From positions 62,001 through 126,000 of the forward strand of contig LADO01000025.1 of the NCBI GenBank assembly GCA_000961595.1: a stretch of 64,000 nt of DNA, written 5' to 3'. Of the stretch, positions 5,530-33,350 are shown in pieces. The number at the start of each line of letters is the position of its first letter. Within the stretch, counting starts at the first letter, position 1. Source of the stretch: Peptococcaceae bacterium BRH_c4b (GTDB lineage: Bacteria > Bacillota > Desulfotomaculia > Desulfotomaculales > Desulfocucumaceae). The notes beneath the pieces are model-generated. The model saw only the letters and a list, made by a program, of their open reading frames with translations. It did not search any database and was not told the origin of the DNA. The position numbers and the translations under genes were made by a program.

Positions 5530-6102
5530 CAGCGGGTTGCCCCACCTGCCTATAACTCTGCTCTCTTTCGTAGATTTCCGCATTTTCGCGTGTGTCTGGG
5601 CAGCCGCCGCACTCAAAGCTGCCGGTGCGGTAGGATAGTCCTGAAATATGAAAGCTCATAAATTTAGCCTTCTGTACTTCCTCCCGGGCTAGCTGGGTCA
5701 CGCCGATGGTGCCCATAATATGATGATAATCTGGAACAATCACCGGCAAGCTTAAAATCGCTCAAAAGCCGCCTTGATACCCTGATTGGCTGCCACACCA
5801 CCCTGAAAAACCACCGGGGGCAGTATTTCCTTGCCTTTTCCCACATTGTTCAGATAGTTACGGACCAAAGCCTTGCACAGTCCGTTAATGATATCCGGAA
5901 GACGGTGTCCCATTTGCTGTTTGTAAATCATGTCCGATTCAGCGAAAACTGTGCACCTGCCAGCTATTCTTACCGGTGTAGCGGAGCTCAGTGCAAGTTC
6001 CCCAAAATCTGTAATAGGTATGTTCAGCCGGGATGCCTGCTGATCCAGAAAGGAGCTGGTCCTAGCTGCACATACCGTATTCATATGCAAAATCTGTGAC
6101 AA
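5530..6102 (-). pseudogene. Truncated, frameshifted CoA-dehydratase activase (BadF/BcrAD/HgdC family)
   Basis: One minus-strand frame (6102 to 5752) encodes CAARTSSFLDQQA, FGELALSS, CTVFAESD and VVFQGGVAANQGIKAAFE. These are typical of the ATPase that activates 2-hydroxyacyl-CoA dehydratases and benzoyl-CoA-reductase-like enzymes. A second frame continues with VIVPDYHHIMGTIGVTQLA and a C-terminal FECGGCP. The frame change is near 5750. The N-terminal nucleotide-binding half is missing. The gene is dead, but it suggests that a 2-hydroxyacyl-CoA dehydratase or aryl-CoA reductase system once existed nearby. Confidence 0.75.
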
Positions 6103-6250: not shown

Positions 6251-6267
6251 TGGCATGTTTTTTGTTG
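6251..6267 (+). promoter_or_regulatory. Weak sigma-54-like promoter upstream of acyl-CoA dehydrogenase
   Basis: TGGCATG, four bases, then TTGTT resembles the -24/-12 consensus except that the -12 GC is GT. It lies about 90 bases before the dehydrogenase start. The rest of 6103-6344 shows nothing else recognisable. Tentative. Confidence 0.3.
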
Positions 6268-15830: not shown

Positions 15831-15898
15831 TAGCCGGGAAAAACTCTGAAGCTGTGTCTTGTGGCAAATTCAATAGAGAGACGGGTAGGTGAAAGAAT

Positions 15899-17059: not shown

Positions 17060-17063
17060 AAAA

Positions 17064-17417
17064 GTGGCCTCAAAAAATATTCCCGTAATGCGCTGCCAGA
17101 AATGCAATAGTTATTACGTGCCCGTCAAGTATAGCTGCAATTCTTGCGGTAGCAGGGAACTGGAAATTGTCAAAGTGGACGGTACAACCCTGATTTATTC
17201 CCATACCACCATCAGAATACCACCGGAGGTATACAGGGATCAGGTGCCGTATGATATAGCTCTGGTTATTTTACAGGAAATACCCGGCTTGATGTTTACC
17301 TCAAGGGTTATGTGTTCTGGGGAAAATAAAATAGAAATCGGAAAAGAAGTAGTTTTTACAGGAACTGATGAGTTGGGCTACAGGTTTGAATTGAAAAGGG
17401 GAATGCCGGATGTGTGA
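17064..17417 (+). CDS. DUF35 zinc-ribbon/OB-fold thiolase partner
   Basis: A 117-residue protein with an N-terminal rubredoxin-like zinc ribbon (CQKCNSYY and CNSCGSREL) followed by an OB fold ([11 protein letters not shown] ...). This is the companion of archaeal-type thiolases, in which it is thought to help channel CoA substrates. GTG 17064 follows GGAGGAGG at the thiolase 3' end, and the 3' end overlaps the start of mutase 2 by eight bases, indicating translational coupling. Confidence 0.85.
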
Positions 17418-19071
17418 TAAGCTATCAGAAATACAACAGTCTCTGGACAAATGGCAGCAAGACAGATCGAAAATGAAAGACCGGGAATTCAAATTTGAAA
17501 CTGTTTCTTCACTACCCGTTAATGACCTGTACACCCCTTTGGATATTAACGGTATGGATTATGAGCGTGATTTGGGCATGCCCGGCTCCTATCCCTACAC
17601 CAGGGGTGTACAGAGTAACATGTACCGCGGCAGACTCTGGACTATGAGACAGTTTGCCGGCTTCGCCACCGCCAGGGAATCAAACGAGCGTTATAAATAC
17701 CTGCTTGCCAAGGGACAAACCGGTTTAAGCGTAGCCTTCGACATGCCCACCATCATGGGCTATGACAGCGATCACCCCCGCTCCCTGGGCGAGGTCGGCA
17801 GGGTGGGAGTCGCCATAGATTCCTTGCAGGACATGGAAACACTATTTGCCGGTATTCCACTGGACAAAGTAAGCACTTCCATGACCACCAACGCACCCGC
17901 CTCCATACTCTGGTGTATGTATATTGCCACCGGGGAAAAACAAGGGATTTCCTCCGAAAAACTGACCGGTACCATTCAAAATGACATACTCAAAGAATAC
18001 ATTGCCCAAAAGTCGTGGATTTTTCCCCCGGAACCATCCATGAGGCTGATAACTGATATCTTTGCATACGCCTGTAAACGCGTGCCTAAATGGAACACCA
18101 TCAGTATCAGTGGCTACCATATACGGGAAGCCGGCTCCACTGCCGCGCAGGAACTGGCCTTCACCCTGGCCGACGGCTTTGCTTATGTTGAAGCCGGTAT
18201 AGCTGCGGGGCTGGATGTGGACGAATTCGCACCCAGACTGTCCTTTTTCTTCAATTCGCACATTGACTTCTTTGAGGAAATTGCCAAATACAGAGCTGCC
18301 AGGAGGATCTGGGCCCGCCGCATGAAAGAAAAACACGGCGTCAAAAACGCAAAATCCTTGCTTTTAAGATTCCACACCCAAACCGCCGGCTGCAGTCTTA
18401 CCGCCCAGCAACCGGAAAACAACATCATTCGAACTGCCTACGAGGCTCTGGCCGCAGTGATGGGAGGTACACAATCACTGCACACCAATTCCATGGACGA
18501 AGTACTGGCCCTGCCATCTGAAAAATCCGTACAAATAGCTCTGCGCACACAACAGATCATTGCCTATGAATCAGGTGCAGCCAATGTAATCGATCCACTG
18601 GCAGGTTCCTACTTCGTGGAAGCCCTGACCAATAAAATGGAAGAAGAGGCGGAAAAATATTTTGCCGAAATAGACAAACGGGGCGGTGTGCTGGCCTGCA
18701 TCGACCAGAATTTCTTCCAGCAGGAAATAGCCGATGCCGCCTACCAATATCAGCGGGCGGTAGATAAAAAACAGCACATTGTCGTGGGTGTCAATGAGTT
18801 CGTCAATGAAGACGAAAAACAGGACATCGAACTATTGAAGATAGATCCGCAAATCGAACTGGACCAGGTGGCCCGGTTGCAACAGTTACGCAGCGAAAGG
18901 GATAACGCCCGGGTAAGCGACACATTAGGGGCATTGCGCAAGGCAGCGCAGGGCCGGGACAACATGATTCCGTTTATTCTGGAATCCGTTCGCTCTTATG
19001 CCACCCTGGGAGAAATAGTCCAGGTTATGCGGGAAGTCTTCGGAGAATACAAAGAAAAACCTACTTTCTAG
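17410..19071 (+). CDS. icmA: Isobutyryl-CoA mutase-type large subunit (mutase 2)
   Basis: A 553-residue mutase large subunit without a B12 domain. The substrate-specificity positions read Phe82 (in RQFAGF) and Gln200 (in EYIAQK), the pair typical of isobutyryl-CoA mutase, with Ala109 and the normal His237 (GYHIREAG). The enzyme should interconvert isobutyryl-CoA and n-butyryl-CoA using adenosylcobalamin, with the small subunit encoded at 19123. n-Butyryl-CoA would then feed the dehydrogenase and EtfAB encoded at 6345-9523. Methylmalonyl-CoA is unlikely because the Tyr/Arg pair is absent; related branched substrates cannot be excluded. Confidence 0.9.
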
Positions 19072-19122
19072 AAGCAGATTTTACTACATAGCCGCACCAA
19101 TCACCGGAAGGAGAATAAATTT

Positions 19123-19548
19123 ATGTCCAGAAAAATCAGGGTATTAGTTGCCAAGCCGGGACTTGACGGTCATGACCGTGGCGCCCGGGTGATAGCCAGA
19201 GCATTTAGAGATGCCGGTATGGAAGTTGTCTATACCGGGCTGCACCAGACGCCGGAACAGGTGGTGGAAGCAGCCATCCAGGAAGATGTTGATGTGGTGG
19301 GGTTAAGTATTCTGTCCGGCGCACACATGACACTTTTTCCCAGAATCAAACAATTGCTGACGGAAAACGGGGCTGATGATATTATAGTAATGGGCGGGGG
19401 GACCATACCCGAGGTAGATATCAAGGAATTGAAGGCAGGCGGCTGGGTGGAGGAGATTTTTACCCCCGGCACTGCCATAGAAACCATATTGGCCTGGATC
19501 AACACTAAAAAGAATGCACATGCTTTGCAAAAAAACAGAAAAAGTTAA
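19123..19548 (+). CDS. icmB: Cobalamin-binding small subunit of mutase 2
   Basis: A 141-residue B12-binding domain with DGHDRG (base-off His ligand), GLSILSG (SxL) and VMGGGTI. All canonical motifs are present, in contrast to the small subunit at 11357. It lies 51 bases after the mutase 2 gene, with CGGAAGGAGAA before the ATG. The last 37 bases, including the stop, are duplicated at 3801-3837. Confidence 0.92.
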
Positions 19549-19633: not shown

Positions 19634-20059
19634 CTAGCTGACCGGCGCCGGCATAAACTTGAAACCGTAGCGTATTACTCCCTCTTCCTCGTATATTTTT
19701 CTGAAGACGGCTGTTACGGGCATGCCCACGGATATTTCCCTGTCCAGGGGGTTGACCAGTTGGGCAATCACTTTGGGCCCTTCCTCCAGTTCCACCAGCA
19801 CAACCGGATAAGATCCTTTGCAGCTGGCCTCTGCTGCGAACTCCGGCGGAGCCCCTCCCCCGGCGATAATAGTATGTGAATATATTTTGCCCCTGCCGCT
19901 TAATTGAATATGTTCAAATTTTGAACCGGTTAAACAATATTTACAAACCGCTTTGGGGGGAAAATTAACCTTGCCGCAATGTAAACATTTTTGCGCCAGC
20001 ATTCTATACTTTTGTGAAACCGCCCTTTGATACATAGGAATTGATATATGTGCTCCCAT
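19634..20059 (-). CDS. DUF35 zinc-ribbon/OB-fold protein
   Basis: A 141-residue protein with a zinc ribbon (CLHCGKVNF and CKYCLTG) and an OB fold (GRGKIYSHTIIAGGGAPPEF ... GPKVIAQL). It is the last gene of the leftward operon, after the thiolase and the HMG-CoA-synthase-like gene. The trio thiolase / HMGS-like / DUF35 matches the archaeal complex in which DUF35 bridges thiolase and HMG-CoA synthase. It probably acts as a scaffold or CoA-channelling subunit. Confidence 0.85.
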   Translation of the reverse strand: MGAHISIPMYQRAVSQKYRMLAQKCLHCGKVNFPPKAVCKYCLTGSKFEHIQLSGRGKIYSHTIIAGGGAPPEFAAEASCKGSYPVVLVELEEGPKVIAQLVNPLDREISVGMPVTAVFRKIYEEEGVIRYGFKFMPAPVS

Positions 20060-20068
20060 GCTCTCACC

Positions 20069-21076
20069 TCAAATGACTTTTTTTATTTTCAGGTAGTGAA
20101 TGTAACTTATATATTTTTTATGATTCAAAAAATATTGAAGTTTTTTGGAACTGTCAGGAAACTGGTTGTCATAATCAAAACTTAAGGCGTGGCTTCCTGA
20201 GCCCGGACTGTATGAACAGATCATTATTTTTGCGCCTTTGCCGGCGTTTTCCAGTACATGGCATAATCCAATAAACGGTGAGCAGGACCCCGTATCGCCA
20301 AATTGATCATAAACAAGGCCTATTTTAATCTGCCCGTCACTGAAACCCAATTTTTTGGCCAGAGCGCCAGCGGTTTTTTGGCTGGTCTGATGCAAAACAA
20401 CGTGCTGGTAATCACCGGGGGTTCTGTGCATTTTATTAAACAATTCCTGTACGGAAGCTTGCATGGTATCATCATGGGCCATGGCAGAGTAGCTCCTGAC
20501 ACCGATATCCCGGACTCCTTTATCCCCTGGGAGCCTGTAGCGCAGACCCGGCACCTCATCAGAATACGCATAAGTTCCTTCAAACCGCAGGCCGGGCTCT
20601 GCTTTAGCCAGTACAAAAGCACAGGCAGCTGCGCCAAAGCCATGGTCCATATCCGAAGATGCTTCAGCCGCCGGAGCATCAGAAATTATAACCAGGGCGT
20701 ATTTTGCTTCTGTTTCTTCCATTAGGCCCAGGGCCGACAGGAATGCTTCCGTTCCTGCCAGGGTGGAGTTGCCGTGCTGGCTGGTTAAAATATTTTTATT
20801 AAGGCCCAGGGCCTGTATGATGGTTCCCGTCATAACCCTTTCCGCGTAAGGAAAAGTGGCTGAAGCCAGGGTCAGCACACCGATTTGGGAGATATCTATT
20901 TCCGTAGAGGCGTTCCTGGCAGCTTCAACAGCCATGGTAAGCACGTCTTCATCTATATCCATAACGGCTTTTTCCTTTATATCGGCATTACAGCTGCCCA
21001 GGGTGTTGATATACTCCTCCCGGGTTATGCGCAGGAATGGTATATAAATACCGTGGGAGACAACACTTTTTATCAT
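20069..21076 (-). CDS. HMG-CoA-synthase-like thiolase-superfamily protein lacking the catalytic Cys
   Basis: A 335-residue protein with the archaeal HMG-CoA synthase / KAS III fold signatures: DEDVLTMAVEAARNA, VVLHQTSQKTA (catalytic-type His) and FGDTGSCSPFIGL. The position where family members have NACxGGT reads NSTLAGT (about residues 103-109), so the nucleophilic Cys is replaced by Thr or Ser. The protein may be a non-catalytic scaffold in a thiolase complex, or use different chemistry. Its start overlaps the thiolase stop (TAATG), and the DUF35 gene follows. The C-terminus ends in a lysine-rich tail. Confidence 0.75.
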   Translation of the reverse strand: MIKSVVSHGIYIPFLRITREEYINTLGSCNADIKEKAVMDIDEDVLTMAVEAARNASTEIDISQIGVLTLASATFPYAERVMTGTIIQALGLNKNILTSQHGNSTLAGTEAFLSALGLMEETEAKYALVIISDAPAAEASSDMDHGFGAAACAFVLAKAEPGLRFEGTYAYSDEVPGLRYRLPGDKGVRDIGVRSYSAMAHDDTMQASVQELFNKMHRTPGDYQHVVLHQTSQKTAGALAKKLGFSDGQIKIGLVYDQFGDTGSCSPFIGLCHVLENAGKGAKIMICSYSPGSGSHALSFDYDNQFPDSSKKLQYFLNHKKYISYIHYLKIKKVI

Positions 21077-22254
21077 TACTGGCCCCCTCTTTCATAAATG
21101 AAAACTGCAGCCGTGCCGCCGGAACCTCCTACATTATGTGATAAGGCCAACCTGGCATTTTTGATCTGCCGGGTATCCTCCTTAGCCTCATCCCGTAATT
21201 GTTTAAAAATTTCGCAGGCCATACCGCAACCGGTGGCGCCGATAGGGTGTCCCTTGGCCTTTAAGCCGCCACTTGCGTTTACCGGCAATTTTCCTCCCAG
21301 CTGGGTTATTCCTTCCTCCAGCAGATACTGGGCACGCCCTTGCTCGCAAAAGCCTAAATCACCGTACGCCAGAATTTCGGCAATGGTAAAGCAATCGTGT
21401 ACCTCTGCGAAATCTATATCCCGGGGCCCAATACCCGCCTGCTTGTAGGCTTCGGCAGATGCCTTGCTGGTGGCGGCCAGGCTGGTAATGGAATCTCTGT
21501 CATGAATAGCCAGATAATCGCTGGCTGCACCAAAACCCCTTAAATAAACCGGTTTACTGGTAAAATTTTTTGCCATACCGGCTCTGCAAAGAAGAACAGC
21601 TGCGGCTCCATCCGAGGTCGGGCTGCAATCCCACACATTAAAGGGATGAGCTACCGGGACACCGTTCAACGCCTGTTCCATGGTAATAGCCTTACGAAAT
21701 TGAGCTTTGGGATTAGCTACCGCGTGACGGTGATTTTTAATTGCTACCATGGATAAGTGCTCTCTTTTGAGACCGTATTCATGCATATATCTTGCGGCCA
21801 TCAGGGCATATATACCTGCAAAGGTAGAGCCGGCCAAACGTTCGTATTCAGTGTCTCCCGATACTCCCAGCCAGTACCTGCCCTTATTGGAAGATACATC
21901 CCGCATTTTTTCTACCCCTGCTGCTAAAACCAGATCGAATTTGCCTGAGGCAATGGCGCAAGCGGCATTATATATGGCGAACCCCCCCGAGGCACAGGCA
22001 TTTTCTATGCGTACGGCATTAACGTGGGGCAAGCCCACATGTCCCATCAGCAAAGGCGCCATTTGCCCCAGCTGAAATCCGCTGCCGGTGCTGAGGGAGC
22101 CAATATAGGCGCTATGCAGCATTTGCGGCTCAAAGCCGTAATCTACGCTTTGCACCATTTCAAAATAAGCTTCCGCAAATAATTCTTTGATGCCCTTGTT
22201 TGGAAAGTCGCCGTAAGTTGTTTGTCCCGCACCGATGATGGCTACACCTTCCAT
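21076..22254 (-). CDS. Thiolase family protein (DUF35-partnered type)
   Basis: A 392-residue thiolase with Cys in ENACASGGFAIYNA, His in EVHDCFTIAE and the signature KGHPIGATGCGM. The start at 22254 has GAGGTG upstream; an earlier ATG at 22284 overlaps the preceding gene. It is the most likely catalytic thiolase of the leftward operon, cleaving a 3-ketoacyl-CoA made by the upstream dehydrogenase, hydratase and hydroxyacyl-CoA dehydrogenase. It is only moderately similar to the thiolase at 15899, so substrate ranges probably differ. Confidence 0.85.
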   Translation of the reverse strand: MEGVAIIGAGQTTYGDFPNKGIKELFAEAYFEMVQSVDYGFEPQMLHSAYIGSLSTGSGFQLGQMAPLLMGHVGLPHVNAVRIENACASGGFAIYNAACAIASGKFDLVLAAGVEKMRDVSSNKGRYWLGVSGDTEYERLAGSTFAGIYALMAARYMHEYGLKREHLSMVAIKNHRHAVANPKAQFRKAITMEQALNGVPVAHPFNVWDCSPTSDGAAAVLLCRAGMAKNFTSKPVYLRGFGAASDYLAIHDRDSITSLAATSKASAEAYKQAGIGPRDIDFAEVHDCFTIAEILAYGDLGFCEQGRAQYLLEEGITQLGGKLPVNASGGLKAKGHPIGATGCGMACEIFKQLRDEAKEDTRQIKNARLALSHNVGGSGGTAAVFIYERGGQ

Positions 22255-22273
22255 ATTAATCACCTCTTCCCCC

Positions 22274-23428
22274 TTATAATTCAAATTCCTTTAACAACCT
22301 GCCGGCTATGACCATGCGCTGGATTTCGTTGGTCCCTTCATAAATCCTGGTAATCCTGGCATCACGGTAGAACCTTTCTATCGGAAATTCTTTCATATAC
22401 CCCATGCCGCCGTGTATCTGGACAGCTTTATCCACTACCCTGGCCAGTGCTTCCGAGGCAAATAATTTTACTATGGGCCCTTCTTTAAAAACCGGTGATC
22501 CTTGATCCACCAGCCAGGCAACCCTGTAAGTCAAAGCCCGTGCCGCTTCGGTATCCGTGGCCATTTCCGCCAGCATCCACTGGATGGCCTGGAAACCGGC
22601 GATTGATTGGCCGAACTGGACTCTTTGCTGGGCATACCTGGTGGACATTTCCACTAATTTATCACAAGCCCCTACGCACCGCGCGGCCAGGCCTACCCGT
22701 CCCTTGGTCAGAATCTTTAAGGCACTGGTATACCCCTTGCCTACCTCACCCAGTACATTCTCTTCCGGAACCTCGCAGTCCTCAAAAATCAGCTCGGAGG
22801 TGCGGGAGCCTTTCAGGCCCATTTTTTTTTCAATTGTCCCCACGGCAAAGCCGGGAAAGCCTTTCTCCACCGCAAAGGCCGTAAATCCACCCCGGGGGCC
22901 CTTTTCTTTATCGGTTACGGCAATTACTGTTACCACATCGGCATCGGGGCCGTTGGTAATAAAATGCTTCATGCCGTTTAAAACCCACCTGTCTCCTTTA
23001 AAAACCGCGGTTGTCTTGATGCCTGCAGCATCCGAACCGGCATTCGGCTCAGTCAGCGCAAATGCGCCTAGTTTATCACCCGTGGCCATGGCTGGTAAAT
23101 ATTTTTCTTTTACTTTGTCGCTGCCCAGTTCAATAATGCCGGTTGAACCAATGCCTATATGGACGCCGATGTAGCTTACAAAGCCGGCATGGGTTCTCCC
23201 CAGTTCCTCTAAAAGCAGGCAGCGGTCAAGCATGCCCAGCCCCAGGCCGCCGTATTTTTCGGGTATGCCGAGACCAAACAGGCCCATTTCTCCGGCCTTG
23301 TCCAGGAGGGGCCGGGGAATACTGTCTTCCTCCTCAATCTGCATGGCGCAGGCGTCAACTTCTGTATCCACAAACTCCCTGATAGTGCGCTTCATATCCA
23401 TTATTTCTTCCGGGATGGTGAAATCCAT
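22274..23428 (-). CDS. Acyl-CoA dehydrogenase
   Basis: A 384-residue FAD enzyme beginning MDFTIPEEIMDMKRT, with LTEPNAGSDAAGIKTTA, HFITNG and the catalytic-Glu segment IYEGTNEIQRMVIAG. The start at 23428 is preceded by GGGGGGAT; longer readings overlap the hydratase gene. It sits in an operon with hydratase, hydroxyacyl-CoA dehydrogenase and thiolase, which makes one complete beta-oxidation round. Because the divergent operon carries BadH-like and BadI-like genes, an alicyclic acyl-CoA (cyclohexanecarboxyl-CoA) is a possible substrate; a branched or short acyl-CoA is the alternative. Confidence 0.88.
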   Translation of the reverse strand: MDFTIPEEIMDMKRTIREFVDTEVDACAMQIEEEDSIPRPLLDKAGEMGLFGLGIPEKYGGLGLGMLDRCLLLEELGRTHAGFVSYIGVHIGIGSTGIIELGSDKVKEKYLPAMATGDKLGAFALTEPNAGSDAAGIKTTAVFKGDRWVLNGMKHFITNGPDADVVTVIAVTDKEKGPRGGFTAFAVEKGFPGFAVGTIEKKMGLKGSRTSELIFEDCEVPEENVLGEVGKGYTSALKILTKGRVGLAARCVGACDKLVEMSTRYAQQRVQFGQSIAGFQAIQWMLAEMATDTEAARALTYRVAWLVDQGSPVFKEGPIVKLFASEALARVVDKAVQIHGGMGYMKEFPIERFYRDARITRIYEGTNEIQRMVIAGRLLKEFEL

Positions 23429-23447
23429 TATTTTATCCCCCCGTTCT

Positions 23448-24227
23448 TTATTTGCCCAGAAAATTGGGTTTGCGCTTTTCCAAAAAAGCCGAGGTTCCTT
23501 CAATGCGGTCAGCTGTTGAAAAGGCTATGGTCTGTGCAAATTTTTCCAGTAAGAGACCGGCATTTATATCCATATTGGCCCCTGCGTTAATTACCATTTT
23601 AGCCAGGCTTACAGCCACCGGACCTTTGGCGATAATTTTCGAGGCCATCTCTTTGGCCGCAGCAAGCAAATTTTCCGGCGGGTCAACTACTTGGTTAACC
23701 AAGCCAATTGTTTTGGCTTCCTGGGCGCTGATCATATCACCGGTAAAAATTAATTCTTTGGCTTTACCCATGCCCACGATTTTCTGCAGCCGCTGGGTGC
23801 CACCGGCCCCGGGTATAATACCCAGATTTAACTCGGGCTGACCCAATTTGGCACGGCTGGTGGCAATCCTTATATCGCAAGCTAAAGCCAGCTCACATCC
23901 CCCGCCCAATGCATATCCATCTATGGCTGCGATAACCGGTTTCTCCAGGTTTTCAATTTCAAGCAGGGTTCCCTGGAGCTCACCCTTTAAAACGTACAGT
24001 GTTTCGCGTTCCATTAATGATTTGATATCTGCCCCCGAAGCAAACGCCTTGCCTCCCGCTCCGGTTACGATAACCACCCGTATATCGCTGTCCGAGCGCA
24101 ATTCTCCCATGGCCTGTCTAATCTCGTAACATGTTTGAAAGTCCAGGGCATTTCGTACTTCCGGGCGGTTTATTGTCAACAAGGCGATGGCGCCTTCCTT
24201 TTGCAGTAGAATATTTTGTTTTGACAA
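23448..24227 (-). CDS. Enoyl-CoA hydratase (crotonase family)
   Basis: A 259-residue crotonase-fold protein. Both catalytic glutamates are visible, in GGGCELALACD and in GQPELNLGIIPGAGGTQRL, and the oxyanion-hole segment is FASGADIKSL. TTG 24227 gives the family's normal length; the longer frame from 24287 adds an unlikely lysine-rich leader. It hydrates a trans-2-enoyl-CoA. It lies between the hydroxyacyl-CoA dehydrogenase and acyl-CoA dehydrogenase genes of the leftward sigma-54 operon. Confidence 0.88.
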   Translation of the reverse strand: MSKQNILLQKEGAIALLTINRPEVRNALDFQTCYEIRQAMGELRSDSDIRVVIVTGAGGKAFASGADIKSLMERETLYVLKGELQGTLLEIENLEKPVIAAIDGYALGGGCELALACDIRIATSRAKLGQPELNLGIIPGAGGTQRLQKIVGMGKAKELIFTGDMISAQEAKTIGLVNQVVDPPENLLAAAKEMASKIIAKGPVAVSLAKMVINAGANMDINAGLLLEKFAQTIAFSTADRIEGTSAFLEKRKPNFLGK

Positions 24228-24295
24228 AACGTCATTTCCCCCTTTGAGTATCCGGATTTTGATAAGGTATAATTTTTTTCCGTTCAAAGATATTG

Positions 24296-25162
24296 TTACT
24301 TGCCGGCATAATCATAAAACCCTTTGCCTGTTTTCCTGCCCCATTCTTTTATTATATATTTTTCGATTATAATGGGAGAGGGCTTGTAAACAGGGTCCTG
24401 GGTTTCCCGGTAGCGTTCCATATTGGTGTGATAATTTAGATCTATACCGGTTAAGTCCAATAATTTAAATGGCCCCATAGGGTGCCCCAGGGCGTTTTCC
24501 ACCGCGGTATCAATATCTGCAAAAGAAGCTATGTCCATGTCATACAGGAAAAGCGCTTCATTTCTTATGGCCGTGAGTATTCTGTTGACCAAAAAACCAT
24601 AAATTTCTTTGTTCAGCAGCACCGGGGTTTTACCCATTTTTTTGGCGACTTCCATGGTAACCTGTATTGTTTCATCAGAGCTGTGCGGGCCTTTAACTAC
24701 TTCAACCAGTTTCATTACCAGGGCCGGGTTGAAAAAATGCATGTTACAGATCTTACCCGGCCTGCCGGTAATATCAGCAATTTTCGAGCTTACGATGTAA
24801 GAACTATTGGTTGTGAGGATAGTATGAGCCTGGCAGATTTTATCCAACTCCAAAAAAATTTTTCTTTTTAAATCAAGTTTTTCCAGAACTGCTTCAATTA
24901 CAAAATCCGCGTCCCCGGCGGCAATTTTTAAATCTTCGGTAAAAGATAAACCGGTCCGGGCCATATTGGCGGATTCTTCATCAAGTTTTCCTTTAGCTAC
25001 ACGCTCAGGCAAGTATTTTTCGACAAAATTTTTGGCATTATCCAGGGTTTTGGCATCAACATCCATGCATTTCACCTGATAACCCGCCAGGGCGGCAGAG
25101 AGGGCTATTTGGTGACCCATGTTTCCGGCTCCCAAAACACAGATTTTTTCAATTGAAGGCAT
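24296..25162 (-). CDS. 3-hydroxyacyl-CoA (3-hydroxybutyryl-CoA) dehydrogenase
   Basis: A 288-residue two-domain dehydrogenase: an NAD-binding domain opening VLGAGNMGHQIALSAALAGY, then MHFFNPALVMKLVEVV with the catalytic His, and the C-terminal helical domain with GFLVNRI, GPFKLLDLTGID and KTGKGFYDY. The length is typical of stand-alone 3-hydroxybutyryl-CoA dehydrogenases. It is the first gene of the leftward operon and has GGGAGGG before the start. A near-perfect sigma-54 promoter lies about 65 bases upstream. Confidence 0.9.
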   Translation of the reverse strand: MPSIEKICVLGAGNMGHQIALSAALAGYQVKCMDVDAKTLDNAKNFVEKYLPERVAKGKLDEESANMARTGLSFTEDLKIAAGDADFVIEAVLEKLDLKRKIFLELDKICQAHTILTTNSSYIVSSKIADITGRPGKICNMHFFNPALVMKLVEVVKGPHSSDETIQVTMEVAKKMGKTPVLLNKEIYGFLVNRILTAIRNEALFLYDMDIASFADIDTAVENALGHPMGPFKLLDLTGIDLNYHTNMERYRETQDPVYKPSPIIIEKYIIKEWGRKTGKGFYDYAGK

Positions 25163-25227
25163 ACTGGAATCCCTCCCAAAAGTCTATTTTAAATTTTAAT
25201 TATGATATAATGTCAGGAAAATTGAAT

Positions 25228-25243
25228 TGCAATGTGCATGCCA
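25228..25243 (-). promoter_or_regulatory. Sigma-54 promoter of leftward beta-oxidation operon
   Basis: On the minus strand the site reads TGGCATGCACATTGCA, with GG and GC exactly ten bases apart, close to the TGGCACG-N4-TTGCA consensus. It stands upstream of the 25162-19634 operon. A PrpR-like sigma-54 activator is encoded at 32239-30329. Confidence 0.8.
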
Positions 25244-25356
25244 ATTAGTTTTTTTTGTTAACTGAGGTTTTTAAAGGGGTTGAACTCTGTAAGCGGTGGA
25301 CATTTTTCAAAAATAACTGAACATTGTTAATATTTTGAACTGAAGCAAGTTAAGAA

Positions 25357-25366
25357 ATGTTAACAT
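25357..25366. promoter_or_regulatory. ATGTTAACAT palindrome, possible activator site
   Basis: A perfect 10-base palindrome lies about 80 bases upstream of the rightward sigma-54 site and 115 bases from the leftward one, a normal distance for an enhancer-binding protein. GTTAA words recur nearby. Tentative. Confidence 0.35.
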
Positions 25367-25436
25367 ATCGAAATCTTCACGGTAAAAATCATTAAAGAGA
25401 CAGATTTTTTAGGCTTATCTGTTTTATTGTGTAAAA

Positions 25437-25450
25437 GGTATGATTCTTGC
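25437..25450 (+). promoter_or_regulatory. Sigma-54 promoter of rightward operon
   Basis: GGTATGATTCTTGC has the GG-N10-GC spacing with TTGC at -12. It lies 32 bases before the ADP-forming acyl-CoA synthetase. It is weaker at -24 than the divergent site but consistent with shared control by one activator. Confidence 0.65.
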
Positions 25451-25481
25451 TTAATATTTCATTAAGAGAGGTGTTTACAAA

Positions 25482-27632
25482 ATGAACCAAACGCAAAATC
25501 CTATCTATGCCATGGAAAATTTTTTTTATCCCGAATCCATTGCCATTATAGGAGCCTCCAGCAATCCCAATAAACCCGGGGGATTGCCGATAGGCTATCT
25601 GTTAAACAAGGGCTACGAAGGAAAAATTTATCCGGTCAATCCCGCCCGTGAGAGTATTAACGGGCTTAAATGCTATCCTTCCGTGCTGGATATACCTGAT
25701 AAGGTTGACCTGGCCATTGTCAGTGTCGTTGCCGCTGACGTGTACCACACCTTGGAAGAGTGTGTGGCCAAAGGAATAAGGGCTGCCGTTATTTTCAGCG
25801 CCGGTTTTGCCGAAGTGGGCCCGGAGGGCCTGGCCTTACAGCAACGGTTAACCGAACTGGCCGGAAAAACAGGCCTTCGCCTGGCGGGACCCAACTGCGT
25901 GGGTCTGCTCAACGCCAATAACGGAGTAATGGCGACCTTTGCCCCCGTGGCTGACCTGCCCCCGGTTGAACCCAAGGTGTTAGGATTCGTCACCCAGAGT
26001 GGAACTTTTGGAACATTGATTTATAATGACTGTCTTTATAAAGGCGTGGGTTTCAGCTACTTCGTGAGCGTGGGCAACGAGGCGGACCTGGAATTTGCCG
26101 ATTTCCTGGAATATATGATCCACGACCCGGGTACAAAACTGGTCGGCGGATATATGGAGGGGGCCAAGGACACTGTAAAACTGCGCAGGGTGGCGGAAGA
26201 AGCCCTCAGGAAGGAAAAGCCGGTTTTAATTATGAAAGCGGGGAGCACCGCAGCCGGTAGCCGGGCCGCAGCCTCGCATACGGGCTCCCTGGCCGGGTCC
26301 GACAGTATATATAATGCCTTTTTTAAGCAGACAGGCATGATCAGGATAAATCTGCATACTGAAGTAATTCACTTTGCCCCTCTTTTTCAGATGGGGAAAC
26401 CGCCAAAAGGGAGGAACGTTGCCATCGTCAGCGGCTCGGGAGGACGTGGGGTGACTCTTTCCGATTGTTGTGAAACCCTGGGCCTTAACGTTGTTCCACT
26501 GCGGCAAGAAACAAGGGACAGGCTGGAAAGTATATTGCCGGCCTTTGCCTCCACCCAGAACCCCGTTGATCTTACCGCAGCGGTGATGACAAGGCCCGAA
26601 TTGCTATTGGAATCTCTTAAAATCGTAAGTGATGATCCGGATGTGGATATAATTCTTACCGGTATGAATTTTCAAGGTTTTGATTCCTCGCACCCTTTAA
26701 TCAGGGAATTTATCGATTTTTATTACCACATCCAAAACAATACAGACAAGTTTATGCTGGTATCATATTTTGTCCAGCCGGGGAGTGAGATGGACTCTGG
26801 GGGAAGGGAACTTCTCCAGGCCGGCATGCACCTTGTGTTTGATTGGCATGAAAACATTAAGGCCGTATCACAATTGGCAACTTATTACGAAACTTTGCAG
26901 AAAAGGAAACAGGATAAATATCGCGTGCAGGCTCCCGGCGTGAAAAAGCCGGACTTGAGCGGCCTCTTAAAACCCGGTGAGACCCTCAGTGAAAGCGCAG
27001 CCAAGGCCGTTCTTGAAAAATACGGCATCCCTGTAACCCGGGAAGCGATGGCAACTTCTGCCAGTGAGGCTGTAAGCCAGGCCAAAACAATTGGCTATCC
27101 GGTGGTGCTGAAGGTGGATTCTCCTGATATTCTCCATAAAACCGAGGCCGGCAGCGTGAAACTAAACCTGAAAAACGACGACGAAGTGAGAGCAGCCTAT
27201 CACGAGGTTATCTCGAACGCCCGGAAATATAAACCGGATGCCCGGATCAACGGCGTTTCGGTGCAGGAAATGCTGCCCGAAGGAACCGAGGTTATTGTCG
27301 GCGTCACCAGGGACCCTGCCTTCGGTCCCGTAATCATGTTCGGCCTGGGAGGTATTTTTGTGGAAGTTCTCAAGGATGTCTCCTTCAGAGTGGCCCCGCT
27401 AAGCCCCGGAGATGCCTCGGACATGATTGAGGAAATCAAGGGCTTCGCAGTGCTAAAGGGTGTCCGGGGCAAACCTCCGGTGGACATTGAAGCCATTGCT
27501 GACGTGATTTTAAAAATATCCGCCTTGGTCACGGACTACAGAGACAGCATTGAAGAACTGGATATAAATCCCCTTATTGTGTATCCCAGGGGGATAAAAG
27601 CCGCCGACGCTCTACTGGTGGTGAGAAAATAG
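25482..27632 (+). CDS. ADP-forming acyl-CoA synthetase (fused alpha-beta, Acd type)
   Basis: A 716-residue fusion of the two synthetase subunits. The N-terminal CoA-binding domain starts ESIAIIGASSNPNKPGG. The succinyl-CoA-synthetase-like domain has GPNCVGLLN and the phospho-His segment AAASHTGSLAGSD near residue 265. The C-terminal ATP-grasp domain has AVLEKYGIPVTREA, GYPVVLKVDSPDILHKTEAG and IVGVTRDPAFGPVIMFGLGG. It makes an acyl-CoA from acid, CoA and ATP (giving ADP), or runs in reverse to conserve energy. Heading the BadH/BadI-like operon suggests it either activates the growth substrate or releases product. GAGAGGTG precedes the ATG. Confidence 0.88.
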   Translation: MNQTQNPIYAMENFFYPESIAIIGASSNPNKPGGLPIGYLLNKGYEGKIYPVNPARESINGLKCYPSVLDIPDKVDLAIVSVVAADVYHTLEECVAKGIRAAVIFSAGFAEVGPEGLALQQRLTELAGKTGLRLAGPNCVGLLNANNGVMATFAPVADLPPVEPKVLGFVTQSGTFGTLIYNDCLYKGVGFSYFVSVGNEADLEFADFLEYMIHDPGTKLVGGYMEGAKDTVKLRRVAEEALRKEKPVLIMKAGSTAAGSRAAASHTGSLAGSDSIYNAFFKQTGMIRINLHTEVIHFAPLFQMGKPPKGRNVAIVSGSGGRGVTLSDCCETLGLNVVPLRQETRDRLESILPAFASTQNPVDLTAAVMTRPELLLESLKIVSDDPDVDIILTGMNFQGFDSSHPLIREFIDFYYHIQNNTDKFMLVSYFVQPGSEMDSGGRELLQAGMHLVFDWHENIKAVSQLATYYETLQKRKQDKYRVQAPGVKKPDLSGLLKPGETLSESAAKAVLEKYGIPVTREAMATSASEAVSQAKTIGYPVVLKVDSPDILHKTEAGSVKLNLKNDDEVRAAYHEVISNARKYKPDARINGVSVQEMLPEGTEVIVGVTRDPAFGPVIMFGLGGIFVEVLKDVSFRVAPLSPGDASDMIEEIKGFAVLKGVRGKPPVDIEAIADVILKISALVTDYRDSIEELDINPLIVYPRGIKAADALLVVRK

Positions 27633-27664: not shown

Positions 27665-28411
27665 ATGGATTTGCAGGGAAAAGTAGCTGTTGTAACCGGC
27701 GCGGGGGAAGGCATTGGGAGAGCGGTTGCAATTAAGCTGGCCCGCCACGGAGCGACGGTGATAGTAGGAGATATTAATCCTATAAGTAGTGAAGAAACAG
27801 TATCTTTAATAAAAAAGGAAGGAGGAAATGCTTCAAAATTAATATTTGATGTGGCGGATTTTGATGCGGTCAAGGAAGCAATGCAAAAGGTAATTACCGG
27901 TTATGGCGGAATTGATATTCTTGTAAACAATGCCGGTTGGGATCAAATTGAACCTTTTCTGGAAAATACCACTGACGTATGGGATAAAGTCATAAATATT
28001 AATTACCGTGGTAATATTCACTGTTGCAGGGCGGTACTGGACCATATGATAGAGCATAAAAAAGGCAAAATCATATCTCTCAGTAGTGACGCCGGGCGTG
28101 TTGGCAGCACCGGAGAGACTGTCTATGCCGGGACAAAGGGGGCAATTATTTCCTTTACCAAATCACTGGCCCGGGAAATGGCACGTTACGGGATTAATAT
28201 TAATTGCGTGGCGCCGGGTCCGACGGATACCGCATTTGTACAAAAAATTCCTGAAAAGCTCCTTGATAGCTTGATCAGGGGTATTCCTTTCAAGCGGTTG
28301 GCTAAACCGGAAGAAATAGCTGATGCCGTTTACTTTTTTGCTTCTTCTATGTCAAACTACATAACCGGTCAGGTGCTTAGCGTAAATGGTGGTTTAACCA
28401 TGGCTGACTAG
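27665..28411 (+). CDS. BadH-like short-chain dehydrogenase (2-hydroxycyclohexanecarboxyl-CoA dehydrogenase type)
   Basis: A 248-residue SDR with the NAD site TGAGEGIGRA, NNAGWD, the active-site Ser in LSSDAGRVGSTGE and YAGTK. Phrases such as NNAGWD, SSDAGRVGS, GPTDTAF and GQVLSVNGGLTM coincide with BadH of Rhodopseudomonas palustris as I remember it. BadH oxidises 2-hydroxycyclohexanecarboxyl-CoA. The next gene is BadI-like, so the pair is coherent. A different 3-hydroxyacyl-CoA substrate cannot be excluded. Confidence 0.75.
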   Translation: MDLQGKVAVVTGAGEGIGRAVAIKLARHGATVIVGDINPISSEETVSLIKKEGGNASKLIFDVADFDAVKEAMQKVITGYGGIDILVNNAGWDQIEPFLENTTDVWDKVININYRGNIHCCRAVLDHMIEHKKGKIISLSSDAGRVGSTGETVYAGTKGAIISFTKSLAREMARYGININCVAPGPTDTAFVQKIPEKLLDSLIRGIPFKRLAKPEEIADAVYFFASSMSNYITGQVLSVNGGLTMAD

Positions 28412-28432
28412 GCAAGCAGGGGGGTGGAAAAC

Positions 28433-29254
28433 ATGGAATTTAATGAAATTATTTATCAAAAATATAACGGCAGGGCAAAAATAACCATAAACAGGGCACA
28501 AAAGCTAAATGCCTTTACCAATCTGACTCTTCAAGAAATGATTAAAGCGCTTGTGGATGCGTGGACTGACAAGAACACGGGCGTGGTTATCATCACCGGC
28601 GCCGGTGAAAAATCTTTCTGTGTGGGTGGAGACCAGTCCATCAGGGAAAAGGGCGGCTATACCGCTGCAGCAAGCCGGGAAGAAGAATCCACGGGGCTGG
28701 GCAATCTTCCTTTGGCCAATAACCATGGCTTGCTTTTACAATTAATCAGGACCATTCCTAAGCCGGTAATCGCTATGGTAAACGGTTATGCCATTGGAGG
28801 GGGCAATATTATTCATGTTGTTTGTGATTTGACGGTGGCTTCCAGCACGGCCAAATTCGGGCAGGCTGGACCCAGGGTCGGAAGCTTCGATGCCGGATTT
28901 GGCACGGCTTACCTGGCCAGACTTGTTGGTGAAAAGAAAGCTAGGGAAATATGGTATCTATGCGAACAATATACTGCTGAAGAGGCTTTAAGTATGGGTT
29001 TGGTTAATAGGGTGGTTCCGCCGGACAAATTATCCGAAGAAGTGGAAAAGATGTGTGACGCTTTGCTGGCAAAAAGTCCAACTTCACTGGCTGCGTTAAA
29101 AACCTCCTTTAATGCCGATTCCGATGCCATTTTGGGAATTCATAACATGGCCACCATAGCTTTGAATATGTACTATGACACGGATGAATCAATGGAAGGA
29201 AGAAATGCTTTTATGGAAAAAAGGCAGCCTGATTTTGCTAAATTCAGAAAATAA
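28433..29254 (+). CDS. BadI/MenB-like crotonase (2-ketocyclohexanecarboxyl-CoA hydrolase type)
   Basis: A 273-residue crotonase of the MenB/BadI branch: ITINRAQKLNAFTN, FCVGGDQS, NGYAIGGGN, FGQAGPRVGSFDAGFGTAYL, and EKKAREIWYLCEQYTAEEAL. The typical hydratase glutamates are absent; the SFDAGFG segment is that of enzymes doing Dieckmann or retro-Dieckmann chemistry. MenB itself would need menaquinone genes nearby, and none are present. With the BadH-like gene just upstream, ring opening of a 2-ketocycloalkane-carboxyl-CoA to a dicarboxyl-CoA such as pimeloyl-CoA is the best guess. ATG 28433 follows AGGGGGGTG. Confidence 0.78.
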   Translation: MEFNEIIYQKYNGRAKITINRAQKLNAFTNLTLQEMIKALVDAWTDKNTGVVIITGAGEKSFCVGGDQSIREKGGYTAAASREEESTGLGNLPLANNHGLLLQLIRTIPKPVIAMVNGYAIGGGNIIHVVCDLTVASSTAKFGQAGPRVGSFDAGFGTAYLARLVGEKKAREIWYLCEQYTAEEALSMGLVNRVVPPDKLSEEVEKMCDALLAKSPTSLAALKTSFNADSDAILGIHNMATIALNMYYDTDESMEGRNAFMEKRQPDFAKFRK

Positions 29255-29308: not shown

Positions 29309-30322
29309 ATGGCTGATATTGTAGAGCTTAATGGGGATATTTTTCAGGTAGATTTGAAAGAGTGCGGTTACGTGGGTAGGACCGCCGGGTATTTGGTGCG
29401 GGGAAAAAACGGCTGGATGCTGATAGAAACAGGGCCGGCCAGTTCAGCAGGGGTTATTCTGGAGGCTGTCAGTCAATTGGGGCTAAAATCTGAGCAATTG
29501 AAATTTATAGCCGTAACACATATTCACCTGGATCATGCCGGCGGCCTAGGCCTGCTGGCAAAACATTTTAAAGAGGCCCGGCTTGTAGTACATCCCAAGG
29601 GAGCCAGGCATATGATTGACCCTTCAAGGTTAATTGCCGGAGCAACTGAGTTTTGGGGCAAGGAAAAGATGGAACAGTACGGGGCAGTATTGCCCGTAGA
29701 CGAGGAAAGAGTCCTCGGCGCTAACGAAGGTGATGTAATTGATTTGGGAGATAGAAAAATTGAAATATGGGAAACCCCGGGGCATGCCAGAAACCATGTT
29801 TGTTATTATGACGCCTTAACTAACGGGGTGTTCAGCGGGGATGCCCTGGGAGTATATGCTTCCGGTCTCACCAAACTGCTGGGGCGGCCGGTGATACGTA
29901 TTGCGACACCGGGACCTGATTGTAACGGTGAGTTACTGTTTAAAACTCTTTTCAGGGTGGCGATGAGTAATATTGAACAAATCTATTTCACTCATTTTGG
30001 TATGGGGCGGCCGCCTCAATTGCTGATGGAAATTATTTTGGGACAACTTAATATATTCATGGAGTCGGGTAAAATCTATAACGAACAAAAAGGAGGGATA
30101 CAGGGTATTCAAGAGGATACAAACTTGGAAATGTATGCGCTTGAAATGGAGAATTACATTCGCAAGGGTTTGCTGGGGCGGAAAAAACATTTGGACGGAA
30201 TGGATGCTGTAATGGAACAGGAGTGGGAATTTCAGGTCGAAATGGTTAAACATTCGGCAGGGGGAATAATGGACTATATTAGAAAAAGCAAAAACTCATC
30301 ACAGGGGAAGAAAGATTCTTAA
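29309..30322 (+). CDS. Metallo-beta-lactamase-fold hydrolase
   Basis: A 337-residue protein with the metal-binding motif THIHLDHAGG near residue 75, the later His in ETPGHARNH, the Asp in FSGDALG and a C-terminal FTHFG. This is an MBL-fold hydrolase of the glyoxalase II / thioesterase-like group with a helical C-terminal extension. It is last in the rightward operon. A CoA thioester hydrolase that relieves dead-end CoA esters is plausible but not shown. TAGGAGGCG precedes the start. Confidence 0.75.
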   Translation: MADIVELNGDIFQVDLKECGYVGRTAGYLVRGKNGWMLIETGPASSAGVILEAVSQLGLKSEQLKFIAVTHIHLDHAGGLGLLAKHFKEARLVVHPKGARHMIDPSRLIAGATEFWGKEKMEQYGAVLPVDEERVLGANEGDVIDLGDRKIEIWETPGHARNHVCYYDALTNGVFSGDALGVYASGLTKLLGRPVIRIATPGPDCNGELLFKTLFRVAMSNIEQIYFTHFGMGRPPQLLMEIILGQLNIFMESGKIYNEQKGGIQGIQEDTNLEMYALEMENYIRKGLLGRKKHLDGMDAVMEQEWEFQVEMVKHSAGGIMDYIRKSKNSSQGKKDS

Positions 30323-30328
30323 ACACAG

Positions 30329-32239
30329 TTAACTGTTTAACTTTTTCCACAGGGTAGTTCTGCTAATACCCAGGATTTCTGCCAACTTGTTTTTGTGGAT
30401 ATTCATTTTAAGGGCCACATTATGGATTAATTCCTTTTCCATTTCCTTAAGTGGTCCTATTCTTATACTAACCATATCTTCACCAGGATTTTCACCGGGA
30501 TTTACGCAAGTATAAGAACTTTGTGAAGTGGAATCGTATAAAAGGCTTTTTATGAGATTAACCCCGGATATGCTGCATTTTTTATATAAATACATAAACT
30601 TTTCGATAAAATTTTCGAGTTCACGCACATTACCGGGCCACCGGTAAGAGAGCAGTGACTGCAGCATATCATCGGTAAAATTTACCCGTTCCTGTTGATT
30701 GGTGTGATTTCTGCTAAACTTGTCCATAAAAAAATTTACCAGCAGGGGTATATCATCATAACGTTCTCTTAACGGCGGAACTTTTATGCTCAAAACATTT
30801 AAGCGATAATACATGTCCGCACGGAAATTACCTCTATTAACAGCGTCTTCTAAATCCAAATTAGTTGCTGCAACTATACGCACATTCATAGGTATTACTT
30901 TTTCCCCACCCAGCCGCCGCACTTCTTTATCCTGGATAACCCGTAGCAGTTTGGCTTGCAGGCTTATGGGTATTTCACCTATTTCATCCAGAAAAATAGT
31001 TCCATTGTGGCTTAGTTCAAACAGGCCGGATTTACCTCCCTTGCGTGCTCCCGTAAATGTACCCGGCTCATATCCGAATAATTCGCTTTCAAGAAGGCTT
31101 TCCGGTAAAGTAGCGCAATTTAAAGCAACGAAAGGCCCGTTGCTTCTATTGCTTGTATTATGAATGCTCTGGGCAAACAATTCTTTACCTGTACCTGTTT
31201 CACCTGTTATCAGAATATTCGAATCACTTGATGCGTATAGGCGGGCTTTTTCGATGGCCCTATTAATTGCCCGGCTCTGACCGATAATATCATTAAAGGT
31301 ATACTTGGCCACCAAACCTTTTTGTTTCATTTCGCGCTGGACAAGTCTTTCCAGCCTTTGAATTTCAGTAACGTCTTTCAGGGCGATGATTTCCTCAATT
31401 TGCCCTGCTTCGTTTAATATTTTTGCCTTGTTAACAATTAATGTGCTGCTGCCTATGGTTTTGATTATACTTCTACCATTTTCATTGATTAATGAGCCGA
31501 TTGTATCCCTGGAAGTGCCAATAATTTGTTCTCGGGGCAAATTTAGTACCTGGGCAGCCGCTGTATTTACAACATTTATTTTTCCGTGTTGATCAATATT
31601 AATTATTCCATCACTAATCATATCAATTATGGTTTGCAGGCGCCTGGTTCTTTCTTTTTCCCGTCTGTTCAAGGCAATTATATCGTAAGCTTTATTCAGG
31701 TATTCCAGTAATGTGTCATTTCCAGGCTCGATTTTTATTGTTTTCATGCCCATTTTTTCTGCCATATGCTTCATGCAGGTGCCTGTTACTATAACAACAT
31801 CTATACCATCTTCATATACTTGCCTGATGGAATCTCTCATTTCAAATTGATTTTTATAGTAATAAGGATAAATGTCAATTCCGGAAATAGAAAGAAGGTT
31901 CTCAAAATCGTTCCTGATTTTTTCCTGATTAAAAGCAACATAAGCAATTTTTGGACCTAATTTTTTAGCTTTATAAACTGCTTTCATGAGGTCAAGTCCG
32001 TCAGTATATATAGGAACCACAGGTATCTGTACGTAATTTTTCACAATCGAGCTGGTGTATGGAAGAGCTAGAATTATTTCAAATTTATTTTGTTCCAGTT
32101 CTTGAGCAACGGTTACAACTTCATCCAAAAACGCCTCTATTATTTCAAAGTTAGTACAGGTAGTGTCTCTAATTTTTTGAACAGCCCTGGTTAATTGGGT
32201 TGAAAGGGATATTAAGGCGATTTTTTCTGGATTAAGCAT
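30329..32239 (-). CDS. PrpR-type sigma-54-dependent transcriptional activator
   Basis: A 636-residue regulator. Residues about 1-190 match the PrpR N-terminal sensor domain (GTCMKHMAEKMGMKTIKI). About 205-320 is a PAS domain (LQTIIDMISDGIINIDQHGK). Then comes a sigma-54 AAA+ domain with GETGTGKE, the loop GTFTGA (usual GAFTGA) and TIFLDEIGEIP. A Fis-type helix-turn-helix ends the protein (NKLAEILGISRTTLWKKL). The start at 32239 has AGGAAGGTG upstream. It lies just after the rightward operon, convergent with it. The two sigma-54 promoters at 25.2-25.45 kb are its obvious targets; the ligand is probably an acyl-CoA or acid of the pathway (inference). Confidence 0.88.
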   Translation of the reverse strand: MLNPEKIALISLSTQLTRAVQKIRDTTCTNFEIIEAFLDEVVTVAQELEQNKFEIILALPYTSSIVKNYVQIPVVPIYTDGLDLMKAVYKAKKLGPKIAYVAFNQEKIRNDFENLLSISGIDIYPYYYKNQFEMRDSIRQVYEDGIDVVIVTGTCMKHMAEKMGMKTIKIEPGNDTLLEYLNKAYDIIALNRREKERTRRLQTIIDMISDGIINIDQHGKINVVNTAAAQVLNLPREQIIGTSRDTIGSLINENGRSIIKTIGSSTLIVNKAKILNEAGQIEEIIALKDVTEIQRLERLVQREMKQKGLVAKYTFNDIIGQSRAINRAIEKARLYASSDSNILITGETGTGKELFAQSIHNTSNRSNGPFVALNCATLPESLLESELFGYEPGTFTGARKGGKSGLFELSHNGTIFLDEIGEIPISLQAKLLRVIQDKEVRRLGGEKVIPMNVRIVAATNLDLEDAVNRGNFRADMYYRLNVLSIKVPPLRERYDDIPLLVNFFMDKFSRNHTNQQERVNFTDDMLQSLLSYRWPGNVRELENFIEKFMYLYKKCSISGVNLIKSLLYDSTSQSSYTCVNPGENPGEDMVSIRIGPLKEMEKELIHNVALKMNIHKNKLAEILGISRTTLWKKLNS

Positions 32240-32492
32240 ATTAAAACACCTTCCTGCCAGAGCGAAAGAATTAACCGTAATATATAAAAGTCTGGTCATT
32301 ATGCGTAACTTTCTTTTGATACTCGCTGTTAATTAATTGTATCATACAAGCAAACCTTTGTGTGAACCTCCCCCCACTATAGTGAGGAGCATCTTGGGGA
32401 AAATCAACAGCCGTCCATAACTGAATGTCAAAGCATGCCAGGATAACCCGGTCAGCTTCGGACCCGGCTGTTTTCAGTAACACCAAGCCACA

Positions 32493-33350
32493 CTACCCGG
32501 CTTTGGGCAGAGCCTGCGGTTCCGCAGGGACTACTACTTTCTTTTGCCGAAGGACAAAAGGCCGTAGATACTTTACTATTATCTTTCCTGTGGGCTGCGG
32601 CTTCATTTCACCGTACTTATTTACCCGCCAGAAGTTTAGGCTGCCTACAATGTCCCTGTGTTCTATGTAGCCGCAGCGACACTTGAATACCCGTCCTTTG
32701 GGCTTGTGTCTGTGTCCGCATGCGGGACAGGTTTGCGAGGTGTAGGATTCGTCTTCTTTTTTTAGCTGGATTCCAACCCTGGACAGCTTGTACTCCAGCA
32801 GCTGAGTTTGTTTGCCAAACTCCCATGTGCTTAGTTTCTGGTTGACTTTTCTGCTCTTTTGTTTTTTGAGGGCGGCTTTTTTCCTGGAGGTGTTTCTTTG
32901 TACTCCGTCAAGATTGCCAATTGCGACTCTGCCAATTTTATGTTCTATACACCAGCCGGTTACCTTACGGGTGATCTTGTGGGTTAAGTCAAGGATTTGC
33001 CTTCTTGTCTTGGCCAGTAGCTTTCTCTTGGCCATAAGCAGTTTCTTCCACTTGCGGCTGTGTTTTTTGCACCTGCTCATAGCCTGGTTAATCGAGGCAA
33101 GCCGCTTTGCACGGTACTGCTTGATGGACCGAAGTGCCCTGCCGGTAACTATTAGTGCTTCGCTGCTGTCGGTAATGGCCATGGCGTGTATTTCTCCAAG
33201 GTCGATGGCAGCCAGTTTGTCTCCGGGCTTCTCCGGCTTTTCAATCAGCCCGGTTATGGCACAGTGGAGGCTGTACTTTCCGTCTTTGTATACCAGTTCA
33301 ACCCTGTTTTGGCCGGCCAGCATTTTGCGGAGTTCGCCTTCATTTACCCA
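32493..33350 (-). pseudogene. IS200/IS605-family TnpB remnant, 5' truncated
   Basis: The open frame encodes about 280 residues of TnpB, an RNA-guided RuvC-like nuclease of IS605 elements. It shows AAIDLGEIHAMAI (RuvC Asp) and the C-terminal zinc ribbon (CPACGHRHKPKG, CRCGY) with HRDIVGSLNF. TnpB proteins are normally 360-400 residues; the N-terminal part is missing because the frame is cut at about 33350, where DUF169 coding sequence begins on the other strand. No TnpA gene is present. Probably not functional. The element's other end lies within 32300-32490, where I see no gene. Confidence 0.8.

Follow-up and report, generated by a model that had tools for sequence, protein, structure and literature searches.

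Predicted divergent sigma-54 promoters and a neighboring PrpR_N-type activator in an acyl-CoA gene cluster of a Peptococcaceae bacterium

INTRODUCTION

Among the Clostridiales, operons for butyrate metabolism and other pathways of the beta-oxidation type belong to the sigma-54 regulons of CrbR, XcgR, and YctR (PMC6615313). A survey of Clostridia further predicted that sigma-54 promoters are enriched at genes of COG1250 and COG1960 (PMC12316311). In Syntrophomonas wolfei, a near system is represented by Swol_0456, a PAS/sigma-54 regulator to which PMC4324140 assigns no targets. Described clusters for the degradation of cyclohexanecarboxylate, the bad-ali clusters, are governed by regulators of the MarR family in Gram-negative bacteria and by TetR-like regulators in Gram-positive bacteria (PMC9795900).

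Here we analyze an acyl-CoA gene cluster of Peptococcaceae bacterium BRH_c4b, which lies within a stretch of 64,000 nucleotides (contig LADO01000025.1, positions 62,001 to 126,000) that we call the window and to which all coordinates refer. A preliminary description had joined two divergent sigma-54 promoters and a PrpR-like activator into one regulon. From sequence comparison, we consider it probable that two divergent sigma-54 promoters and the neighboring activator control the two halves of one acid-degradation regulon.

RESULTS

The divergent gene starts at 25162 and 25482 flank a gap of 320 bp that holds both predicted sigma-54 promoters. On the minus strand, the first gene encodes a 3-hydroxyacyl-CoA dehydrogenase (HADH; 24296..25162; Pfam 3HCDH_N/3HCDH), whose homologs in the order are 56 to 75% identical. 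It is followed by an enoyl-CoA hydratase (ECH; 23448..24287; Pfam ECH_1), by an acyl-CoA dehydrogenase (ACAD; 22274..23503) that is recognized by Pfam and is AcrC-like while falling under every equivalog cutoff, and by a thiolase of the SCP2/BbsB type (21076..22284), which is assigned by profile matches and has relatives with 72 to 86% identity. An HMG-CoA-synthase-like condensing enzyme (HMGS-like; 20069..21076; PRK04262, 248.5 bits against a cutoff of 244) precedes the final gene of this operon, which encodes a DUF35/OB-fold zinc-ribbon protein (19634..20059; PF01796 and PF12172). The plus-strand operon opens with an NDP-forming acyl-CoA synthetase (ACS; 25482..27632; ATP-grasp_5, Succ_CoA_lig, and CoA_binding_2) and continues with a BadH-like short-chain dehydrogenase (27665..28411), a BadI/MenB-like crotonase (28424..29254), and a putative metallo-beta-lactamase-fold (MBL) hydrolase (29309..30322; PF00753). 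The sigma-54 activator gene (30329..32299, minus strand; PrpR_N, PAS, AAA+, and HTH_8) is convergent with the plus operon and ends 6 bp past the MBL stop codon. Pfam and profile annotation of the downstream genes bears out the earlier statement that each promoter heads an acyl-CoA operon, and an activator gene of the PrpR_N type indeed closes the cluster where the plus operon ends.

Two neighboring features deserve mention. Adjoining the cluster, positions 14151-19548 encode two large subunits of the methylmalonyl-CoA-mutase type, a small subunit that binds B12, and another thiolase of the SCP2 type, which may together form a pathway for branched acids that uses an acyl-CoA mutase. Immediately upstream of the activator gene and on the same strand lies a TnpB/IS605 OrfB-type gene (32493-33323), and the end of this element may fall within the 250-bp stretch that separates the two genes.

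Candidate sigma-54 promoters were defined by a GG and a GC separated by 10 nt in the pattern TGGCAYG-N4-TTGCW, with the transcription start about 12 nt downstream of the GC. The minus-strand site that had been described is present as the predicted promoter of the HADH operon (25228..25243; TGGCATGCACATTGCA, i.e., TGGCATG-CACA-TTGCA), with GG at 25241-25242, GC at 25229-25230, and a predicted start near 25217. It has no mismatches, and it is the only perfect match in the window and one of two in the genome (3.62 Mb, 66 contigs), the genome-wide scan having covered this one pattern; the other (C27:646) immediately follows an activator gene and precedes a gene for an acyl-CoA dehydrogenase. The GG-N10-GC described on the plus strand is likewise intact, at 25436..25451 (AGGTATGATTCTTGCT, i.e., AGGTATG-ATTC-TTGCT), where it would serve the ACS operon from a start near 25462, although this site is weaker, with two mismatches that both fall in the -24 element (A for T and T for C). 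Since the window shows no excess over shuffles of sites with at most two mismatches (20 observed, 21.5 expected), the plus site rests on its position and on comparison rather than on the consensus count. The two sites face apart with 192 bp between them, in agreement with the spacing of about 200 bases reported before. About 67 nt separate the GC of the minus site from the HADH ATG, the corresponding distance between the plus site and the ACS ATG is about 32 nt, and good ribosome-binding sites precede HADH and ACS (GGGAGGGA and AGAGAGGTG). The genome carries a single copy of RpoN (480-aa frame) and 13 strong sigma-54 activator domains.

We then scored the window with a matrix built from 48 sites of other genomes, all close to HADH, ACS, or activator genes, with the window itself excluded. 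Among the 127,970 positions on both strands, the minus site ranked first (16.1 bits) and the plus site second (14.7 bits), with about 0.001 matches like the latter expected by chance in the 60-nt slot ahead of the start codon; it is the matrix from relatives, together with position, that sets the plus site beyond chance. The ranks are more telling than the bits, because the training sites were hand-selected among hits resembling the consensus. Both window sites are weak compared with this training set (median, 21 bits; 5th percentile, 16.3). The next two ranks, 3 and 4, fall to a sigma-54-like divergent pair (6086-6101, minus; 6251-6266, plus) that precedes an acyl-CoA dehydrogenase/ETF operon; as sigma-54 promoters these are doubtful, since GG is missing from one and GC from the other.

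Homologs of ACS, HADH, the activator, and BadI were searched for throughout the order, and the surrounding regions were compared. In these related regions (599 kb), 87 sigma-54-like sites were counted, compared with 16 matches to the reversed pattern. Of the neighboring pairs of such sites at most 350 bp apart, 11 are divergent and 1 is convergent; having been chosen for holding homologs, the regions yield counts that describe these loci and not genomes at large. A related activator occurs within 10 kb of 25 of the 52 HADH homologs, where gene number and genome size predict 0.76. Divergent sigma-54 pairs lie between or beside the HADH and ACS homologs of genomes G057, G049, G041, G065, and G070, and a site corresponding to the plus promoter stands ahead of ACS in regions L070, L071, and L072. 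Roughly a dozen genomes have all or part of the HADH-ECH-ACAD-thiolase-HMGS-DUF35 set, in many cases together with sigma-54 sites and an activator of the PrpR type, and frequently with additional genes for thiolases, CoA-transferases, and acyl-CoA dehydrogenases. In the window's own family, the ACS orthologs (63 to 70%) have neither an HADH neighbor nor a good sigma-54 site. The exact cluster is thus a local assembly, the closest ACS orthologs of the family sitting elsewhere, and footprinting within the family is uninformative. Across relatives, the comparison supports the prediction of one regulon.

It is very improbable, in light of these results, that both sites are chance matches and that ordinary sigma-70 promoters run the operons. 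Sigma-54 sites are degenerate, and the shuffles show how readily two-mismatch matches arise, but the perfect minus site is rare, the two sites jointly take the top matrix ranks, the paired arrangement is conserved, and two-box sigma-70 promoters in the gap are not above chance. Nor is a known riboswitch a rival, since no Rfam RNA element matched in the window. Unlikely, though less so, is a mixed arrangement in which the minus operon depends on sigma-54 while the plus operon is transcribed mainly from a sigma-70 extended -10 box, its GG-N10-GC being accidental or minor. The gap contains such a box (25203..25211, plus strand), and TGATATAAT is the sole perfect extended -10 (TGNTATAAT) on the plus strand of the 64-kb window; a possible sigma-70 start near 25218 would give a leader of about 264 nt before the plus operon, and the substitutions and commonness by consensus count of the plus sigma-54 site would fit this arrangement. 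However, the box has no good -35 partner (2/6 matches at best, by reading), whereas the plus sigma-54 site holds the second matrix rank and the right slot before a ribosome-binding site, and divergent paired sigma-54 sites recur in relatives. We thus retain two sigma-54 promoters as the preferred reading.

The stretch between these promoters (25244..25435) is a candidate activator-binding region, with TGTTAA-type elements at 25256, 25325, and 25358/25360. The palindrome that the preliminary description placed there was not supported: 98 of 200 dinucleotide shuffles gave inverted repeats as good as, or better than, the best ones observed. With shuffled DNA doing equally well, the palindrome was rejected as evidence of an activator site. 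TGTTAA/TTAACA is counted four times at three places, the third of which, TGTTAACA, is palindromic and counted on both strands. Although none of 1,000 shuffles reached this count, some 6-mer was equally frequent in 67 of 1,000, which makes the repetition borderline once all 6-mers are allowed for. In relatives, TGTTAA shows a modest rise (21 regions, 13.3 expected), and a further copy was found by reading upstream of the activator gene, near 32327. These observations weakly suggest the TGTTAA repeats as a candidate activator element.

A search of 6- and 7-mers in the DNA upstream of the sigma-54 sites of 57 related regions yielded no activator motif shared with the window. TGAAACA/TGTTTCA, which is absent from the window's gap, occurs in 14 of the 57 regions (2.6 expected), about 70 to 180 nt upstream of the sigma-54 sites, and GTTGCAA also stands out; regions with TGAAACA/TGTTTCA include L147, L152, L153, L154, L155, L164, L070, L074, L182, and L184. 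Both sequences may be candidate sites of other activator clades, with TGAAACA as a half-site. Reading of region L081 (G041) also showed a long inverted repeat with arms of about 24 nt (ACTACTGGCGTTCAATTAATTAAC; L081:7410-7462) between divergent sigma-54 sites.

The activator protein likely starts at 32239 (Met21), given that a strong AGGAAGG lies just upstream and that relatives align from about residues 22 to 26. We class it as a sigma-54 activator from its AAA+ domain (PF00158, 232.6 bits) and its matched HTH domain (PF02954), and the catalytic motifs GETGTGKE (Walker A) and LDEIGEI (Walker B) are intact, as is the HTH. The sigma-54 contact loop reads GTFTGA, whereas among 46 compared proteins 45 have GAFTGA and one has GAYTGA. 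The earlier term "PrpR-like" is apt for domain content, PrpR_N being matched with 99.3 bits (PF06506; cutoff, 29.1), but by the curated equivalog cutoff the protein is not a PrpR (TIGR02329; 394.7 bits against 499.2), and it contains an added PAS stretch and has the GTFTGA loop. The protein is divergent (best identity, 42 to 44%; end branch, 0.89), and in a tree of 47 activators it falls, on a long branch, in a clade with those of G007, G108, G064, and G004:C148 (SH-aLRT, 99). In G064 and G004:C148, the clade members belong to HADH loci that contain a perfect sigma-54 site, an MBL homolog and mutase genes lie close to the one in G004:C148, and the G007 member stands ahead of a sigma-54 site and of dehydrogenase and thiolase-like genes.

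The peculiarities of this protein lend a low but appreciable probability, the highest among the alternatives considered, to promoters that are sigma-54 dependent yet driven by another of the genome's 13 strong activators, the neighboring gene regulating something else or being impaired. Besides the divergence and the unusual loop, the TnpB-type transposon gene directly upstream could have disturbed the activator's own promoter, and the motif search yielded no shared binding motif. Against this, the activator family is strongly linked to HADH operons in the order, phylogenetic kin of the local activator occur in similar loci, and its catalytic motifs and HTH are preserved. We infer that the local activator, and not one of the other 12, acts on both promoters.

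Profile scores leave some latitude as to the substrate. TIGR03206 (BadH) is the top match of the short-chain dehydrogenase, with 263 bits against a cutoff of 431.2, and the crotonase stays below the cutoffs of both BadI (TIGR03210; 329.9 against 467.6) and MenB (PRK07396, 357.5 against 380; second MenB model, 326.5 against 342.7). Homologs of this crotonase were found in six relatives (73 to 80% identical), mostly accompanied by BadH-like genes and in some by an AliB-like acyl-CoA dehydrogenase and an AMP-forming ligase. An activator gene is close to the BadI homolog in all six; in five, the first gene is preceded by a sigma-54 site that has no more than one mismatch, and in five the activator is of one short type (294 to 355 aa), devoid of the sensory half. 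One relative's crotonase passes a MenB model instead. A search of the window's genome with a relative's AliB-like protein, which itself scores 445 against the AliB cutoff of 575, gave at best 39% identity over the full length and at most 42% over a partial match. The BadH- and BadI-like enzymes hint at an alicyclic acid, and the neighborhoods of the BadI homologs support a putative bad-ali-like role. The use of "fatty or alicyclic acid" proposed in the preliminary description is therefore plausible but best kept as a working hypothesis, as the BadH, BadI, and AliB scores fall short of their cutoffs, like that of the ACAD, one related crotonase passes as MenB, and no close AliB relative was detected in the genome. 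The short activators of L180-L184 (G065, G049, G004, G041, and G099), which adjoin bad-ali-like genes, are conserved (59 to 82% identical), and the one that was scanned has no sensory domain.

DISCUSSION

The sequence, the presence of RpoN, and conservation across the order give good support to sigma-54 control of both operons by a neighboring activator, the core of the preliminary description, once the palindrome and the strict PrpR identity are set aside. In the mechanism that we propose, RNA polymerase with sigma-54 would wait at both promoters. The PrpR_N/PAS half of the activator (30329-32299) would sense a small molecule of the pathway, its C-terminal HTH would bind the DNA between the promoters, and the spending of ATP would open both promoters together. 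One half of the regulon, of the beta-oxidation type, would comprise HADH, ECH, ACAD, thiolase, HMGS-like enzyme, and DUF35 protein, and the other the acyl-CoA synthetase, the BadH-like and BadI/MenB-like enzymes, and the hydrolase. Of this scheme, the analysis shows the promoter sequences, the gene content, the presence of RpoN, and the recurrence in relatives; the binding site, the ligand, and the substrate are, like the choice of activator, inferred.

With slightly less than even confidence, we extend this reading to the order, a group of anaerobic Firmicutes in which much of organic-acid catabolism, bad-ali-like genes included, might be arranged in sigma-54 regulons, with a separate activator for every locus and often with paired divergent operons. 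The activators would be of the PrpR_N/PAS type or of the short type without the sensory half. If so, the genome sequence would reveal how acid oxidation is controlled in anaerobes that are difficult to grow and, promoters, activator, and operon being located together, testing activators with ligands in a laboratory host could assign the substrates.

The locus adds a well-supported example to published sigma-54 control of beta-oxidation genes in Clostridia and, in view of that literature (PMC6615313, PMC12316311), is not a new kind of control. It resembles the CrbR, XcgR, and YctR systems in the pairing of an activator with sigma-54-driven operons of the crt-hbd-thl-bcd type, and PrpR_N and PAS domains are found among those activators as well (PMC6615313); it differs from them in its two divergent operons, its thiolase-HMGS-DUF35 set, its NDP-forming synthetase, and its BadH/BadI-like genes. 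With PMC12316311 it shares the gene families, namely, 3-hydroxyacyl-CoA and acyl-CoA dehydrogenases, but that work is a statistical survey, and the part available to us describes neither divergent pairing nor the window's activator. PrpR, the activator of propionate catabolism (TIGR02329), has the same PrpR_N, AAA+ sigma-54, and Fis-type HTH domains, whereas the window's activator has a sub-cutoff score, an extra PAS match, and GTFTGA, and no prp (2-methylcitrate) genes are among its neighbors that were examined. The bad-ali clusters offer likenesses of another sort, in BadH- and BadI-like enzymes, divergent operons, and a regulator gene within the cluster (PMC9795900), but here the cluster has predicted sigma-54 promoters with an activator and contains no AliB-like gene and no AMP-forming AliA-like gene. 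The less familiar element of our findings is the placement of bad-like genes under predicted sigma-54 control, which, if it holds for the relatives' bad-like genes, would add a regulatory solution to those based on MarR and TetR-like proteins.
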